Source: Methanoculleus caldifontis
GTDB taxonomy: Archaea > Halobacteriota > Methanomicrobia > Methanomicrobiales > Methanoculleaceae
Length of the DNA stretch: 64,000 nucleotides
NCBI RefSeq assembly: GCF_032842345.1
Contig: NZ_WBKO01000002.1
Coordinates: 330,208-394,207, forward strand
Direction: 5' to 3'
The notes under the pieces: generated by a model
What the model saw: the letters and a program-made list of their open reading frames with translations, nothing else
Databases searched by the model: none
Told to the model about the DNA's origin: nothing
Made by a program: the position numbers and the translations under genes
Shown: piece by piece, positions 33,500 to 53,700 of the stretch
How the letters are laid out: each line of letters starts with the position of its first letter
Position numbering within the stretch: position 1 is the first letter of the stretch

Positions 33500-34024
33500 A
33501 TGGAGAGAGGCAATATACGGACGTGCCAGAGCTGCGGGATGCCGATGAGTACACGGGAGCACTTCGGGACGGAGGCGGACGGGTCGCCCTCGAAGGACTA
33601 CTGCACCTACTGTTATCAGAATGGGGCGTTCACCGCGCCCGATATCACCCTCGAGGCGATGGCGAAGATCGGCGGGGGGATGATGTCGCAGATGTACGCT
33701 ATCCCTATCGAGAAGGCGGAGAGCTTCACGAAGGAGCATCTCGCGTGCCTGAAGCGGTGGGCCGGAAGGGAGATCCCGGTCTGCGAGAGCTGCGGGATGC
33801 CGCTTGCCCGCGATGACGATGCCGGGTCTGAGGCGGACGGGTCGCCCTCAGAGGCCTACTGCGCCTACTGCTATCGTGACGGGGCATTCACCGAGCCGGA
33901 TCTAACGCGGGAGCAGGCGGTGGTGAAGTACGCGCCGATGATGGCCGAAAACCTCGGCATGCCCCTCGATAAGGCGCAGGAGATGGTGGGCTACTACCTC
34001 TCGACGCTGCCGCGGTGGCGGTAG
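33500..34024 (+). CDS. Protein with two tandem putative zinc-ribbon domains
   Basis: 174 residues that are an internal duplication. Copy 1 (residues 9-88) has CQSCGMPM, a GTEADGSPSKDYCTYCY segment and a helical tail ending LKRW. Copy 2 (94-172) has CESCGMPL, GSEADGSPSEAYCAYCY and a tail ending LPRW. Each copy thus offers four cysteines (CxxC ... CxxC), as in the putative zinc ribbon family PF12674. GGAG precedes the ATG. The function is unknown; these occur in methanogens and anaerobic bacteria, often as single copies. Confidence 0.85.
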   Translation: MERGNIRTCQSCGMPMSTREHFGTEADGSPSKDYCTYCYQNGAFTAPDITLEAMAKIGGGMMSQMYAIPIEKAESFTKEHLACLKRWAGREIPVCESCGMPLARDDDAGSEADGSPSEAYCAYCYRDGAFTEPDLTREQAVVKYAPMMAENLGMPLDKAQEMVGYYLSTLPRWR

Positions 34025-34095
34025 GGGCCCGACGCGGACAGCGGGCGAGTTCTTATATTCCCCGATCCGTGAGATCGATACAGGGGAGAGACCTA

Positions 34096-34386
34096 TTGGG
34101 CCTGCATGTCGAACTGCTTGAAAGGAGGGAGGAGATCCTCGCGGTCGCGGCGAGACACGGCGCACGAGCGGTCAGGGTCTTTGGATCGGTCGCCCGGGGC
34201 GAGGAGACCCCGGCGAGCGACCTCGACCTCCTCGTCGAGTTCGAGCCGGGGAGGAGCCTCCTCGACCAGATCGCGCTCGCCCAGGACCTGGAGGACCTGC
34301 TCGGCCGCGAGGTCGACGTGGTGACCGAGAAGGGGCTGCACTGGTATATCAGGGACGCTTCTCTCCGTGATGCCGTGCCGCTGTGA
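34096..34386 (+). CDS. MNT-type minimal nucleotidyltransferase (antitoxin of a HEPN/MNT pair)
   Basis: 96 residues with a TTG start at 34096 (GGGGAG 7 bases upstream), giving (M)GLHVELLERREEIL; the ATG at 34015 lies far upstream with a spurious leader. The polymerase-beta-like active site is intact: VFGSVARGE then SDLDLLVEF, with DVVTEKGL as the third acidic position. In HEPN/MNT systems the MNT AMPylates and silences the HEPN RNase. The following HEPN gene overlaps its stop (GTGA) but is truncated here. Confidence 0.85.
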   Translation: MGLHVELLERREEILAVAARHGARAVRVFGSVARGEETPASDLDLLVEFEPGRSLLDQIALAQDLEDLLGREVDVVTEKGLHWYIRDASLRDAVPL

Positions 34387-34499
34387 AAGACGACTACGAA
34401 CGGATACTGGACATTCTGGAAGCCATTGGACGGGTTGAGAGAGTGTCAGGCCGGTCAGTTTGCCCGACCACACGCCTCATACTCTATAACGACCTATAG
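34383..34499 (+). pseudogene. Truncated HEPN (DUF86) gene remnant
   Basis: Begins with a GTG overlapping the MNT stop codon (GTGA), as HEPN genes usually do, and its first residues VKDDYERILDILEAIGRVER match the N-terminal helix of DUF86/HEPN proteins. After about 25 residues the reading frame loses similarity and stops at 34497-34499, so only 38 codons remain of the usual ~110. The RelBE-like pair starts 9 bases later. This looks like a HEPN toxin lost by deletion while its antitoxin survives. Confidence 0.65.
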
Positions 34500-34507
34500 G
34501 CATTAAC

Positions 34508-34744
34508 ATGTCCGCCACTACCGTCTGGATCACGCCGGCGAACAAAGACCGCCTGGAGGGTCTTAAACGGCACCCCAAGGAGTCCTATAACGACGTTATC
34601 AGCCGCCTGCTCGACATGGCCGTCGATGACGAGCCCCTCTCGGAGGAGGCTATCCGGGGTATCGAGGAGGCCCTGGAGGACATCAGGGAGGGTCGGCTCT
34701 ACTCCGAGGACGATATCCAAAAGGAGTTTGGTGTGGAGGAATGA
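34508..34744 (+). CDS. Ribbon-helix-helix-type antitoxin, RelB/VapB-like
   Basis: 78 residues. An initial strand TTVWITPANKDRLEGLKRHP is followed by the helix ESYNDVISRLLDMA, the fold of small archaeal antitoxins of the DUF7557 type. The C-terminal part (EEALEDIREGRLYSEDDIQKEFG) is acidic and would wrap the toxin. The stop overlaps the next gene's ATG by 4 bases (ATGA). A TATA-like ACTCTATAAC near 34480 lies just upstream. Confidence 0.82.
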   Translation: MSATTVWITPANKDRLEGLKRHPKESYNDVISRLLDMAVDDEPLSEEAIRGIEEALEDIREGRLYSEDDIQKEFGVEE

Positions 34745-35001
34745 CCTACACGGTCACCTACACCGCCCGGGCCCGGCGGGACCTCCAGAGTCTCCTGCCG
34801 GAGGTGGCCCGCCGGATTATCCGTTCGGTCGCCGGGATCCGGGAGAACCCCTACCGGCATGTCCGGAAACTGGCCGGGTTTTCCAGGACTCCCGTCTACC
34901 GGCTCCGGGTGGGCCAGTACCGGGTTGTGCTCACGATCGAGGATGAGCGCCTCCTGATTCTGGTACTGGAGGCGGGAAACCAAAGCAGCATCTATCGGTA
35001 G
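34741..35001 (+). CDS. RelE-family ribosome-dependent mRNA interferase toxin
   Basis: 86 residues, the standard RelE/ParE size. TYTVTYTARARRDLQSL starts the first strand and helix, VARRIIRSVAGIRENPYRHVRKLAG the helices, and VYRLRVGQYRVVLTIEDERLLILVLEAG the conserved RxGxYRVxY-type core and the last strands. The residue pattern at VGQYRVVLTI fits RelE better than ParE. It is translationally coupled to its antitoxin and faces the decayed HEPN/MNT locus. Confidence 0.9.
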   Translation: MTYTVTYTARARRDLQSLLPEVARRIIRSVAGIRENPYRHVRKLAGFSRTPVYRLRVGQYRVVLTIEDERLLILVLEAGNQSSIYR

Positions 35002-35409: not shown

Positions 35410-35728
35410 TTAAACCGCCACGCCGTCATGAAGAACATGCCTGATGAGGGGGTACTCCCGGTGCGCCGCAAGATCGGCCCGGGAGATGACCTTGACCGAG
35501 AGCCGCTCCCCGGAGAGCATCAGCAGGTCGAAAGCAAGTCCTGTAAGATATTCACGAAGACGAAGATCCTCCCCGGATGTAATCACAAGGATATCAATAT
35601 TGGAGTCCGGCCGGTCGTCCCCCCGTGCCACGGAACCGAAGAGTATGATCTCTTCTATTGCGTCGCCGCACGCCTCTCGTGCCTTTGCCGCGAATTCGTG
35701 GATGACCCGGTCGTTTGACCGAGACCAT
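35410..35728 (-). pseudogene. MNT-type nucleotidyltransferase, frame broken near its start
   Basis: The core VARGDDRPDSNIDILVITSG is intact, and the frame upstream extends it to NDRVIHEFAAKAREACGDAIEEIILFGSVARG, the normal MNT N-terminus. That frame has no ATG, GTG or TTG before a stop. A suitable ATG at 35728 (MVSV) is one base out of frame, as if an A were inserted near 35712-35716 (GTCAAACGAC). With the frameshifted HEPN following at its stop codon, this is a decayed HEPN/MNT pair. Alternatively the GTG at 35631 makes a short protein lacking the first strand. Confidence 0.7.
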
Positions 35729-36014
35729 GATGGAGTTGTTGTGAATGCGGGGCATGATGATTACTGATCAAACTTCAGGCTATATCGGCGTATAATCGCT
35801 CAGGGCGTATACTCTTCGACATCCATCGTGGTTAACCGGGTCGGGCGGGCATGGCCTCCCCGACCGCAGGCCGGACGCTCCGAACCTTCCTTTGCCCCTC
35901 ACCGGTTCCCCGCACCCTCGCGGGCCCTTTTGGTCCCACAAAGGCGATCGGATCTCAGGAGGGCCGGTTATCGCACCAGGCGGTGCTCATGCTCCTGCCC
36001 TGCAGGCAGTCGCA

Positions 36015-36094
36015 CTTCGCGCCTTCGCGCCTTCGCGTGAGCTGATTGTAGAGATAGTGATATGGCCTCACGCGAAGCCGCGAAGAACGCGAAG
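36015..36094. repeat. Palindromic dispersed repeat, copy at 36.05 kb
   Basis: Left arm with triplicated CTTCGCGC ending CTTCGCGTGAG (36015-36041) and inverted right arm CTCACGCGAAGCCGCGAAG (from 36067, extending to 36094) around an AT-rich centre GATATGGC. Same family as the copies at 11829 and 20935. It lies in a gene-free stretch (35729-36673) that also holds the tandem repeat below. Confidence 0.75.
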
Positions 36095-36151
36095 TTTGGT
36101 AGAGGATGAGGAGCTCACCTCGCACCTCTGGTGCTCCCGCCGCTGCCGCCA

Positions 36152-36361
36152 GTCGTGAGTCGAAACCCTCCCGGGTTTCTCCCGCTCCGGTTCTAACGAA
36201 CCGTCGTGAGTCGAAACCCTCCGGGTTTCTCCCGCTCCGGTTCTAACGAACCGTCGTGAGTCGAAACTCTCCGGGTTTCTCCCGCTCCTGCCGCTCGCTC
36301 CGCTCACGCCAGTCGTGAGTCGAAACCCTCCGGGTTTCTCCCGCTCCGGTTCTAACGAACC
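36152..36361. repeat. Four-copy tandem repeat, about 50 bp each
   Basis: Units start at 36152, 36203, 36253 and 36312. Each begins GTCGTGAGTCGAAACCCTCC and contains two small hairpins: AAACCC-TCC-GGGTTT and GGTTC-TAAC-GAACC. Unit 3 is altered at its end (CTCCTGCCGCTCGCTCCGC). There are no variable spacers between identical repeats, so it is not a CRISPR. The surrounding region has no gene. Confidence 0.85.
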
Positions 36362-36673
36362 GTCGCGCATACGAAAAATTCCGCCCCCGATACGGCCCCG
36401 GATCTTCCCCACCTGCCGCACCCCCGGAGCACCGCTCCGGACCCCCGTATTATATCCCCGGTGAAATTAATCCGGATTATCCCCAAAACCTCGATTCCAG
36501 CCCAGGGGTTCTTTTCAACAACCCATTTATGGCATGAAAGGATCTTTCGCACTGCCGTGTCTGACGATATAAAATCATTCCGGAAAGAATCACTACGACA
36601 GATTTATATGATATAAGAAAATAGGTAATCTCGTCGACTGAAATCCCCAGCGGGGGTATCAGGTCAAAGAGGT
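36362..36673 (+). promoter_or_regulatory. AT-rich upstream region of the pilin gene
   Basis: Gene-free and increasingly AT-rich. TTATATGATATAAG near 36604-36617 holds a TATA-like element about 60 bases before the pilin ATG, and GTATCAGGTCAAAGAGGT provides the leader with GAGGT as ribosome-binding site. Nothing else is recognisable. Confidence 0.4.
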
Positions 36674-37117
36674 ATGAGTATGATGAAATTCAGAGAGAAT
36701 GAAGAAGCAGTCTCACCGGTGATCGGCGTTATCCTCATGGTCGCCATCACGGTGATCCTCGCTGCGGTTATCGCGGCGTTTGTGTTTGGGATGACCGGGA
36801 ACGTGCAGACGACGAAGACAGTGGCTATCGGCTCGGCACTTAACAGCGGCGATTTAGCCCTCACTGTCAACGGAGGTGCAGATCTGCCCACTCTTCAACA
36901 GCTGACAATTACAATAGACGGAGCGGTACCTACCGGCACTATTACCTGTAATAACGCTGATGTCAGCGAAGCAGATGGAATACTTACGCTTGGAGCAGGC
37001 AAGAAATTCCAGGTTGGAAACACGATCACAATCGAAGGACAGAACTCTGGAAGACTCCTTGTCGTTGGCAAGTGGAGCGACGGTGCTGAGCAGATTATCC
37101 TTGACCGCACCTATTAA
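36674..37117 (+). CDS. Type IV pilin-like precursor (archaeal pilin N-terminal domain)
   Basis: 147 residues; an in-frame ATG at 36683 would give a slightly shorter leader. The class III signal region is KFRENEEAVSPVIGVILM with a long hydrophobic helix to about residue 42, as in archaeal pilins processed by EppA/PibD-type peptidases. After the helix, the head is strand-rich with many Gly/Thr and no Cys except one (TCNNAD). A poly-T sequence (37119-37130) follows the stop as terminator. The neighbour across a gap is an archaellin gene on the other strand. Confidence 0.85.
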   Translation: MSMMKFRENEEAVSPVIGVILMVAITVILAAVIAAFVFGMTGNVQTTKTVAIGSALNSGDLALTVNGGADLPTLQQLTITIDGAVPTGTITCNNADVSEADGILTLGAGKKFQVGNTITIEGQNSGRLLVVGKWSDGAEQIILDRTY

Positions 37118-37441: not shown

Positions 37442-38014
37442 CTACACATCATACCAGCTACCCGAACTCATCCCCGCTGGCGCTCTGCGCTCCATTGTGA
37501 ATGAAACCGCATCAGAGGGCTTCACCTCAACAAAAAACCTCTGGTTATGAGCGATGAGCAGATCCCCCGGAAGCGTGGGGTCATCCGCTTGGAACAACGG
37601 GATCTGTACCTGCCAGAAAACCGGTCTCCCGCCTCCTCCACTGCCGCCTATCGGATGCCACCGGGCCGCTCCCGTGTATGTCTGTATCGAATCAGCGGTC
37701 GATACGGTGACGACAATCCGCTCCATATTGATGTCAGCGCCGCCCTGGGGACCCCTCACCATGACAATGATATACCGTATATGCCGACCGTCGGTACTTG
37801 CCTGCACCATAACCGGCTCGGCGATCTGGACAACGGCGCCGACCTGTTTTACCGCTGAGTAAACAGTCTGCTCCGTCTTCTGGGTCGTGAAGAAGCCGGC
37901 ACCGAGCGCCACGTACGCGAAGACGGAGGCTACGACGATAAAGGCAATGAAGACCATCGCTGCCTCTAGGCCAGTGAACGCTCTGTCGTCTAATGCAAGC
38001 GGCTCCATTGCCAC
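37442..38014 (-). CDS. Archaellin (archaeal flagellin)-type protein
   Basis: 190 residues. The class III signal and hydrophobic N-terminal helix are typical: DDRAFTGLEAAMVFIAFIVV with cleavage expected after Gly15, then ALGAGFFTTQK and a following amphipathic helix. The C-terminal part, PLFQADDPTLPGDLLIAHNQRFFVEVKPSDAV, matches the conserved archaellin beta-barrel end. It is shorter than many FlaB proteins (~200-220). No other archaellum genes (fla/arl cluster) are near, so it may be a stand-alone or minor archaellin. Confidence 0.85.
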   Translation of the reverse strand: MAMEPLALDDRAFTGLEAAMVFIAFIVVASVFAYVALGAGFFTTQKTEQTVYSAVKQVGAVVQIAEPVMVQASTDGRHIRYIIVMVRGPQGGADINMERIVVTVSTADSIQTYTGAARWHPIGGSGGGGRPVFWQVQIPLFQADDPTLPGDLLIAHNQRFFVEVKPSDAVSFTMERRAPAGMSSGSWYDV

Positions 38015-50768: not shown

Positions 50769-53700
50769 ATGACAAAACACACACACCTGGCACTCCTGTG
50801 CGCAGTCATCGTCCTCGGACTGCTGATACCGCCGGCCCTCGCGGTAGGTACCGCTCCGGGAACGCCGCGGGAATACGTCCTTCCCGGCGGGCAGGAGCAT
50901 CCGAGCATCGACGGCGATATGGTCGTCTTTGAGCGCAGTCTGCTCAATGGACCAAAAGACATCTACTGTATGAGCACATCGGGCACCGGCTTGCGCCCGA
51001 TCACGAACGACAACGTACCGCAGGAGCGGCCGTCCATCTCGGGCGACTACGTCGTCTGGCAGGAGAACCGGAACGGGAACTGGGACATCTACCTCTACTC
51101 GTTCTCGAAGGACGAGACCCTCCAGCTCACCGATAGTCCGGCCGACCAGTGGCTGCCGGTCATCCACGGAAACTACGTCGTCTGGTACGACAACCGCGGA
51201 GGAAGCACCGACATCTGCCTCTACGACATCAGCGCCAAGAAAGAGAAGGGCATGATCGGCTGCAACCCTGAACTCGGCACCGACACGACCAAGTTCAAGC
51301 CCGCGCTCTCGGACGATTACGTCTCCTGGGAAGAGGTGGGCTCGGGGCTCCGGCTCTACGAGATCGCCACGGGAACAAAGCGGACGGTCTCGTCAAGCAG
51401 CATGCCCCAGTCGTGGCCCTCGATAGCCGGGGACCTCATCGCCTGGGAGGACTACCGGTGGGGAGCGGCATGGCAGTCCGCGATCTACCTCAAGGACCTC
51501 AGCACCGGGAGCGAGCGCCAGCTGACGACGCTGAGCGCCGAACAGGTCTCGCCGGCACTCAGCGGGAGCATCATCGCCTGGGAGGACAAGCGCGATGGGC
51601 AGTGGAGCATCTACATGTATGACCTCGCAGACCTCCCCGGCGGCGAGGAGATGTCGGTGCCCACCGCCGGCGGCGAGCAGATCTACCCGGCCGTCAGCGG
51701 CAACACGATCGTCTGGCAGAAGAACCGGGGCGACTTCGCGAACATCTGCATCTACACCTACGTCGCCGACGAGCCCGTACAGATCGTCACCAGGATCGAG
51801 GTTGAGCCCTCCACGACCGTCATGGAGATCGGCGAGGAGTTCAAGTTCAACGCGACCTGTTACGACCAGGACGACAACGCCATGCCCGACCTGAAGGTCA
51901 CCTGGGCCTGCAGCAACGCCACGGTCGGGTTCATCGACCCCGGCGGCTACTTCCTCGCTTCCGCCGCAGGCATCGCGACCATCACCGCATCGACGGCCGG
52001 GGTCTCCGCACAGGCGACCGTCATCGTCGACGCCCCCGAGCAGATCCTCACGACCGTCGAGATCGCGCCGTCCACGGCCACCGTCGCGGTCGGCACGACA
52101 CGAGAGTTCGCCGTCGCCTGCTACGACCAGTCCGGCAACCTCATGACCGGCGTCCCGGTCGCCTGGGCGAGCAGCAACACGACCGTCGGCACGGTCAATG
52201 AGAGCGGCACGTTCACCGCCCTCGCCGAAGGCACGGCCGATCTCACCGCAACGGCAGGCGGACTCTCTGCAACGGCAGCCGTCACGGTCATCGCCCCGGC
52301 GTCCCCGGTCCTGACCGGGATTGAGGTCGCACCGGCCACGGCCACCGTCGAGACCGGCGAGACGCTGGCCTTCACCGCAACCGCCCTCGACCAGTTCGGC
52401 ACCGCCATGAGCGGGGTTCCCATCACCTGGGCGAGCGGTAACGAGACCGTCGGGACCATCGATGCCGCCGGCACCTTCACCGCACGTGCCGTGGGCACGA
52501 CGACCGTCACCGCCTCGGCGGGCGGCGTCACCGGGACCGCGACCGTGACCGTCGCCGCCGAAGCGCCGGTCGCCGCGAGCATCACCGTCGCACCCGCCGC
52601 GGCCACGCTTGCCGTGAACGACCACCAGCAGTTCATCGCGACCGTCCTCGACCAGTTCGGCAACGAACTGCCGGGACCCGCAGTCACCTGGACGAGCAGC
52701 AACGGGACCGTCGGCACGATCAGCACGGACGGAATCTTCACCGCACTCGCCGCGGGCACCGCGACCGTCACCGCCTCGGCGGGCGGCGTCGCCGGAACGG
52801 CAACGGTCTCCGTCGCCGCCGACGAACAGCCGATCGGATTGGTCGCCGTCTCCCCGTCCGCAGTCACCCTGGGCATCGCCGATGCCCGGCAGTTCGAGGC
52901 GATCGTCTTTGACCGGGCCGGCAGGATCGTCCCGGACGCTGAGGTCCTCTGGGCGAGCAGCGACGAGGCCGTCGGCACGGTCGGCGCGGACGGAATCTTC
53001 ACCGCGCTCGCCGCGGGCACCACGGCCGTCACCGCCTCGGTCGACGGCGTCACCGGGACCGCGGCCGTAACGGTCCGCGACGATGCCCCGGCCCTTGCCT
53101 CGATCAGCATCGCACCGTCGGCGATCACCCTCGCCGCCGGCGAGACCGAACGCTTCGTCGCCACCGGCTACGACCAGAGCGGCCGTGTTATGCCGGACGT
53201 CGGAGTAATCTGGGCCTGCAGCGACGCAGATGTCGGCATGATCGGTGCCGACGGAACCTTCGTCGCGCTCGCCGCGGGCACCGCGACCGTCACCGCCTCG
53301 GCAGACGGCGTCACCGGGACCGCGGCCGTAACGGTCGTCAGCCTCGCTCCCGGGCTTGTGGTCTCCCCTGCGGCGATCGCCCTTGATGCCGGGGCTTCGC
53401 GGCAGTTCATCGCGACCCTGTATGACCCGGAGGGCAACGAGATGCCCGTCGCTGAAGTGATCTGGTCGTGCAACGATCCGGCCGTCGGCACGATCAACAC
53501 GGCCGGGTTCTTCACCGCCGCCGGTGAGGGGACCGCGACCGTCACCGCCCTGGTCGAAGAGACCGGCGAGACCGGAACCGCGACCGTGACCGTGCGGCCG
53601 GTGCTCCCGGCGCCCGGCCGGATCGTGGTCAGCCCCTCCGACCTCACCATCGCCGCCGGCAACAGCGTGGCGCTCACCGCCACGGTCTTCGATCCGGACG

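Follow-up and report, generated by a model that had tools for sequence, protein, structure and literature searches.

A tandem array upstream of a pilin gene in Methanoculleus caldifontis is one member of a dispersed family of mosaic palindromic repeats

According to the accessible portions of PMC3733652 and PMC2817692, the REP/BIME sequences of bacteria are short palindromes present in many copies, arranged in mosaic clusters and sited mainly downstream of coding regions. In the available part of the former, a REP survey, the palindromes are either linked with Y1 transposases or assigned no enzyme at all, and the CGTC-tagged REPs are palindromic and repeated with no dedicated transposase known; that part names bacterial phyla only, the word 'archaea' appearing twice, in reference titles. 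Is there anything of the kind in archaea? The accessible part of a satellite survey (PMC6749651) gives two families for Methanoculleus marisnigri, Fam_48_45_4 and Fam_102_51_3, with repeats of 45 and 51 nt, and reports transposed non-coding long-repeat satellite families only from Leptospira interrogans and Methanocella conradii, so that those of M. marisnigri are not so classed there. Literature searches on Methanoculleus repeats, Methanomicrobiales palindromes and archaeal REP or mosaic repeats yielded, in the titles and starts of abstracts among the matches listed, no description of the family dealt with here.

The array to be compared with these systems lies in the window, the whole stretch of 64,000 nucleotides of Methanoculleus caldifontis DNA that was analysed. 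The preliminary description saw there four tandem repeats of about 50 bp, and this is borne out both by TRF (36152-36365; period 50, 4.1 copies, score 296) and by the regular placing of two joints, GTCGTGAGTCG starting at 36152, 36203, 36253 and 36312, and CTCCCGCTCC at 36179, 36229, 36279 and 36338, from which unit lengths of 51, 50, 59 and about 54 bp follow. The two hairpins that it assigned to each unit, AAACCC/GGGTTT and GGTTC/GAACC, are real and slightly longer than was stated, the A stem being GAAACCC/GGGTTTC (7 bp) and the B stem CGGTTC/GAACCG (6 bp). Seven non-overlapping hairpins (stem 5 or more, loop 3-5) occur within the array, one of which (36303-36319) is neither A nor B, the mismatched A stem of unit 3 being left out of the count; in 500 first-order Markov resamples the mean was 0.83 and the maximum 4. 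As single-stranded DNA the plus strand of the array folds with a z of -4.5.

Why does unit 3 have a divergent end? Besides the one-base mismatch in its A stem, it has a longer B part, TGCCGCTCGCTCCGCTCACGCCA, where the others carry GGTTCTAACGAACC; the difference arises from an alternative B module in the place of the second hairpin. The sequence preceding unit 1, GCACCTCTGGTGCTCCCGCCGCTGCCGCCA, is of the same kind, and its resemblance to the end of unit 3, which had also been remarked on, is thereby explained. Such alternative modules are present in relatives too, e.g., at loci L007 and L013. The decayed part of the module pair before unit 1 reads as a probable B module of the TGCCGC..GCCA kind. 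Units are assigned to the minus strand because it is the complementary strand that shows G..A loops and GCGA/GGAGC joints (Table 1). They abut without unique spacers, so the earlier dismissal of CRISPR holds. The 117-aa minus-strand ORF that runs across the array (36068-36421) was judged spurious, as a 50-bp period shifts the frame, and the array looks non-coding.

Table 1. Positions in the window of the array, its units and neighbouring features
Feature	Position	Strand	Components or evidence
Degraded module pair before unit 1	36122..36151	-	A hairpin GCACC-TCT-GGTGC 36122-36134 and decayed B module
Unit 1	36152..36202	-	Joint J2 36152-36162; A hairpin GAAACCC-TCCC-GGGTTTC 36162-36179; joint J1 36179-36188; B hairpin CGGTTC-TAAC-GAACCG 36188-36203
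Unit 2	36203..36252	-	J2; A hairpin 36213-36229; J1 36229-36238; B hairpin 36238-36253
Unit 3	36253..36311	-	J2; A stem GAAACTC/GGGTTTC (one mismatch); J1 36279-36288; alternative B module TGCCGCTCGCTCCGCTCACGCCA
Unit 4	36312..36365	-	J2; A hairpin 36322-36338; J1 36338-36347; B hairpin 36347-36362; closing GTCGC
Separate second A-B pair of the array's family	35973..36013	-	GCACC-AGGC-GGTGC, CTCATGCTCC, TGCC-CTGCA-GGCA, GTCGC
Neighbouring second palindromic repeat	36015..36095		TTCGCG-rich arms face to face: TTCGCGTGAG, 25 nt, CTCACGCGAA; core 36032-36076
Archaeal type IV pilin gene	36674..37117	+	Pilin_N E 7.6e-20; about 309 bp past array

The intergenic gap that holds the array is bounded on one side by the pilin gene and on the other by a minus-strand reading frame ending at 35410, which by motif resembles a nucleotidyltransferase. 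Within it the B interior of the second A-B pair is one of 6 occurrences in the home genome. The core of the second palindromic repeat corresponds to G000:C2:366239-366283 (G000 being the home genome). That repeat, with a spacing of 25-28 nt in the listed home copies, has 43 copies at home and, in a search of 41 genomes in which the reversed control gave none, 27 in G015, 25 in G003, 23 in G006, 6 in G019 (taken as M. marisnigri) and 3 in each of two genomes of another family. At L104 and L122 hairpin pairs sit in the same kind of joint within TTCGCG-rich arms.

How far does the array's own family extend? Used as a query against the home genome, the array retrieves little, the next-best matches to the unit being 81% over 57 bp and 78% over 55 bp, because the stems of the family change. 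An exact search of the genome contigs with one 22-base string gave 0 matches, which means only that this string is rare among those contigs, and a blastn of 36100-36420, directed at plasmid carriage, was without match. Matches to the array occur in 30 of 61 genomes; the hairpins of relatives differ in sequence and sit in similar joints. On the complement of the window strand (R strand) the parts are arranged as GCGAY-[B, 5-6 bp]-GGAGC-NN-GAG-[A]-CGA-N2-3-GCGAY, so a pattern blind to the stem, GCGAYN{13,15}GGAGCNNGAG, could be set against the same pattern reversed. It gives 73 matches in M. caldifontis against 9 for the control, and 170 against 2 in M. marisnigri; within 400 kb of the latter the spacing 13-15 has 17 matches and each of 19 other spacing bins 0-3. 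If 'rich' denotes at least 20 frame matches and more than three times the control, 23 of the 35 Methanoculleus genomes are rich, three have 10-15 matches (G007 10 vs 4, G009 15 vs 6, G029 13 vs 4) and nine have 5 or fewer, some of these poor ones (G018, G023) still showing a single BLAST match. Two other genera of the same family have 28 (control 1) and 2 (control 2), and the 24 genomes of other families 0-9, the one with 9 having a control of 7. An occurrence both unique and devoid of structure, against which the preliminary description had guarded, was thus not what was found: the unit itself is confined to the array locus while its family is genome-wide.

The B module is interchangeable, and the unit is a member of a mosaic palindromic repeat family dispersed in Methanoculleus. 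The B interior TGCCTGCAGGGCAG is at six places in M. caldifontis, and an identical 43-nt B+A unit is at four unlinked loci, all among those six. That modules A and B recur at many unlinked places, also in relatives, supports the earlier suggestion of a composite unit, expanded and possibly a transposable repeat. The reading that we consider probable, if by no means secure, is that the array is a local amplification of this dispersed double-hairpin mosaic, an archaeal counterpart of REP/BIME that acts, or is copied, as a folded single strand. Each unit consists of a short A and a short B hairpin whose order does not vary, held by two conserved joints, and the family would owe its maintenance and copying to one strand (GCGAY..GGAGCNNGAG..CGA) that folds into minihairpins of great stability. 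Constraint would fall on GC clamps, GA/GA joints and G-N-A or G-N-N-A loops, stem letters being free if pairing is retained. Identical joints would allow arrays like that of the window to lengthen, by slippage or by unequal exchange. Slippage, as proposed earlier, can explain the identical copies within arrays; it cannot explain dispersal or covarying stems.

The stems of the family vary and yet mostly remain complementary, the fixed parts being the two joints. For B this was quantified on 63 distinct 23-mers, namely the listed matches from M. caldifontis and M. marisnigri with a 15-nt interior (longer interiors left out), taken without a pairing filter, though the shuffle statistics do not account for relatedness of the copies. 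Pairing cells make up 92.1% against 74.2% in shuffles, 82 cells are changed on both sides against 26.2, and the covariation score is 0.465 against 0.167, a value that 0 of 500 shuffles reach and that slid registers, at most 0.133, do not approach. Further pair types number 19 against 15.2 (reached by 2 of 500), and the pairs with two-sided change, 5, do not outnumber those of shuffles (4.6). In this set the joints and outer letters are invariant because the search required them. The column pair 8 and 16 fails in 22 of the 63 rows; these failures are largely GGGCC/GGGCC forms, for which pairing in another register may be possible. Joints that are conserved and hairpin arms that change together point to repeats acting as folded single strands.

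Could the same pattern arise with no selection for folding at all? Quasi-palindrome correction, i.e., intra-strand template switching, yields two-sided changes without selection, and in a selfish repeat it could perfect the stems while ordinary recombination did the spreading. Copies are indeed alike within arrays, e.g., 11 identical 28-mers among the matches listed for an M. marisnigri array of period 47, and on inspection half-hairpins without a partner arm occur in arrays. Such correction would alone fail to explain the conserved joints, the G..A loops of one strand or the identical unit at unlinked loci, and we regard a selfish repeat of this sort as a plausible but unlikely account.

Which strand would fold? 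Most R-strand loops are GNA or GNNA. Counting perfect stems only, triloops are G..A in 35 of 46 distinct hairpins (28 of 35 if only C-G-closed ones are taken) and tetraloops in 25 of 38 (24 of 37), whereas among all C-G-closed hairpins of an M. marisnigri sample, both strands counted and the elements included, the corresponding figures are 88/628 (14%) and 37/392 (9%). One-sided mismatches in B stems are G.T in 26 cases and A.C in 9 (p 0.006), the count being conditioned on near-perfect stems since 134 of 214 distinct interiors, those with at least 4 of 5 Watson-Crick pairs, were kept. A stems have no such excess (11 vs 10), so strand-specific folding rests mainly on the loops and the B stems. 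Position 0 of B, C or T opposite G, is no evidence of strand, as most row patterns forced Y or G; with this position left free, 7 rows among the matches listed have A or G, and inspection reveals no hairpin in that register. To judge from their letters, the joints may form GA/GA pairs.

The available part of PMC4686876 describes GNA and GNNA loops on G-C stems as very stable, nuclease-resistant DNA minihairpins. In minihairpins such as d(GCGAAGC) the loop classes and the G-C closing are those of the Methanoculleus family, whose small B modules read GCGAGCGAAGCGAGC, which contains d(GCGAAGC). The published examples, as far as the accessible text goes, are synthetic oligonucleotides, while the present case is a genomic repeat family, which would make it a natural set of single-strand DNA minihairpins.

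A structured RNA had been among the possibilities raised, and transcripts in R orientation might act as hairpins, at mRNA 3' ends or as small RNA, the joints containing tandem G.A pairs. The covarying stems, the G.T excess in B stems, the situation of elements mostly beyond the 3' ends of genes, and the strong RNA folding of the array (z -6.5 for the minus strand, -5.4 for the plus strand) agree with it. Against it, the two Rfam matches within 35700-36700 are nowhere near a gathering score (best 18.6 bits vs 70), and tetraloops that are GNRA number 10 and GNYA 15, so there is no GNRA preference. Nor is an intrinsic terminator indicated, T5 runs in 60-nt windows on the R strand being present before 6 of 78 modules and after 0 of 78, with a background of 60/777. 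Modules also have both orientations in co-directional gaps (17 and 7 in M. caldifontis, 8 of the 17 coming from one array; 7 and 4 in M. marisnigri). For these reasons the RNA reading seems to us rather unlikely and the single-strand DNA reading is favoured over it for the family.

As regards gene context, 54 of 61 modules in the M. caldifontis stretches examined are intergenic by our own gene caller. Elements are rare between divergent genes: of the gaps, 27 of 69 convergent ones hold elements, as do 18 of 198 co-directional and 2 of 116 divergent ones, figures that come from the home-made caller, which missed the pilin gene and wrongly classed the window's gap as convergent, one of the 27, and from home stretches mostly chosen for holding a frame match. 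In the 400 kb of M. marisnigri that alone were unselected, the counts are 4/28, 5/99 and 0/60. The window's array, upstream of the pilin gene, is outside the preferred convergent setting. Might it then be an array of binding sites for a nucleoid or regulatory protein? Conserved joints in tandem order, about 309 bp before the pilin gene, would suit such a putative role, but duplex binding has no need of covarying stems and other copies are more often between convergent genes, which leaves this reading improbable. No trend in orientation is seen along the M. marisnigri chromosome (43 loci of a narrower pattern, 22 runs vs 22.5 expected), a weak test, since GC skew is near zero and does not suffice to delimit replichores.

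Arrays run head to tail, e.g., L101 and G019:222460-222957, and in M. marisnigri, where their periods are 45, 47, 49 or 68 bp, the longest run of identical 28-mers among the matches listed comprises at least 11. The array of period 45 shares its repeat length with the 45-nt satellite family of the same species; the satellites of that survey may be arrays of the present family or protein repeats. The accessible part of PMC6749651 calls transposed non-coding satellite families rare in prokaryotes, and the present family would add a case in a genome examined there. Separately, arrays with 7 to 13 B-module copies among the matches listed, at 211567-212070, 222460-223286, 1007826-1008147 and 1923559-1923946 of G019:C1, are possible strain-typing markers. 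Between species, the orthologous loci L106 and L108 have similar joints and other stems in M. caldifontis and M. marisnigri. At one locus followed in four species, the stems are unchanged in G019, G030 and G033, which differ in how many units they have, and G026 has more units and a different last B stem. At L103 a cassette with two pairs of hairpins, one A arm being degraded, lies between GCGAAG repeats; it is present in the M. marisnigri ortholog and absent in M. caldifontis, a single site between species that is compatible with insertion or deletion.

What, then, copies the elements? The Y1 transposase family PF01797 scores above the curated cut-off in one (G010) of the 26 Methanoculleus genomes that have at least 10 frame matches and in 5 of the 9 with 5 or fewer, in a survey that includes some incomplete genomes; G031 has a single match below cut-off, and none is found in G000, G003, G005 or G019. 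Nor did a recurrent neighbour gene emerge, 105 flanking proteins giving only 6 clusters, each of one M. caldifontis and one M. marisnigri gene. A non-autonomous single-strand DNA transposon moved by a Y1 (IS200/RAYT-like) transposase, as with true REPs, would fit the hairpin shape, the dispersal and the GCGAAG-bounded cassette, but given the scarcity of PF01797 in carriers and of any gene recurring beside elements beyond those six pairs it is disfavoured and very improbable. Under the folded-single-strand reading preferred here, a more specific and distinctly doubtful proposal is that a non-Y1 enzyme reads single-stranded GA/GA-jointed GNA minihairpins by shape and adds or swaps cassettes at GCGAAG sites. 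If that were true, stem letters would be ignored and elements would drift freely in sequence while keeping their shape.

Where does this leave the comparison with the known systems? Like REP/BIME, the family consists of short palindromes in tens to hundreds of mainly intergenic copies, and on that likeness it may be placed near them. Three features that define REPs were looked for and are not those of the family. There is no GTAG tag at the palindrome end, the aligned modules having instead the joints GCGAY, GGAGC, GAG and CGA; REPs have a RAYT/Y1 transposase in the genome, which is missing in M. caldifontis, as judged by PF01797, and in most carriers; and REP/BIME clusters alternate in orientation, whereas Methanoculleus arrays run head to tail with two different hairpins in fixed order. 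The host, moreover, is archaeal and not bacterial. The CGTC-tagged REPs share the palindromic, repeated form; in them CGTC is conserved at one end, whereas here only TCGC is constant and the letters preceding it follow the stem, so that CGTC occurs only with some stems. Head-to-tail tandem arrays are frequent in the Methanoculleus family, while in the available part of the REP survey head-to-tail dimers of CGTC-tagged REPs are negligible. With this family one archaeal genus shows as many as 170 matches to the frame in a genome and rich covariation, most carriers lack a Y1 enzyme, and relatives have next to none of it; this contrast of carriers and non-carriers makes testable the question of what copies orphan palindromes. 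Mitochondrial double-hairpin elements and GC clusters also have two hairpins with a linker, are repeated and are held to be mobile. From these the Methanoculleus family is set apart by its archaeal chromosome, tandem arrays and exchangeable modules, and no shared sequence is claimed.

Some other features of the window may be recorded. An ORF with a nucleotidyltransferase domain (PF01909) lies near a ParE-like toxin ORF (PF05016) in a toxin-antitoxin-like stretch at 34015-35001, and an archaeal flagellin family protein (PF01917) is encoded on the minus strand at 37442-38014, near the type IV pilin gene. Further along, at 52427-53336, is a tandem repeat of period 261 and 3.5 copies, perhaps within the coding region of a repeat protein.
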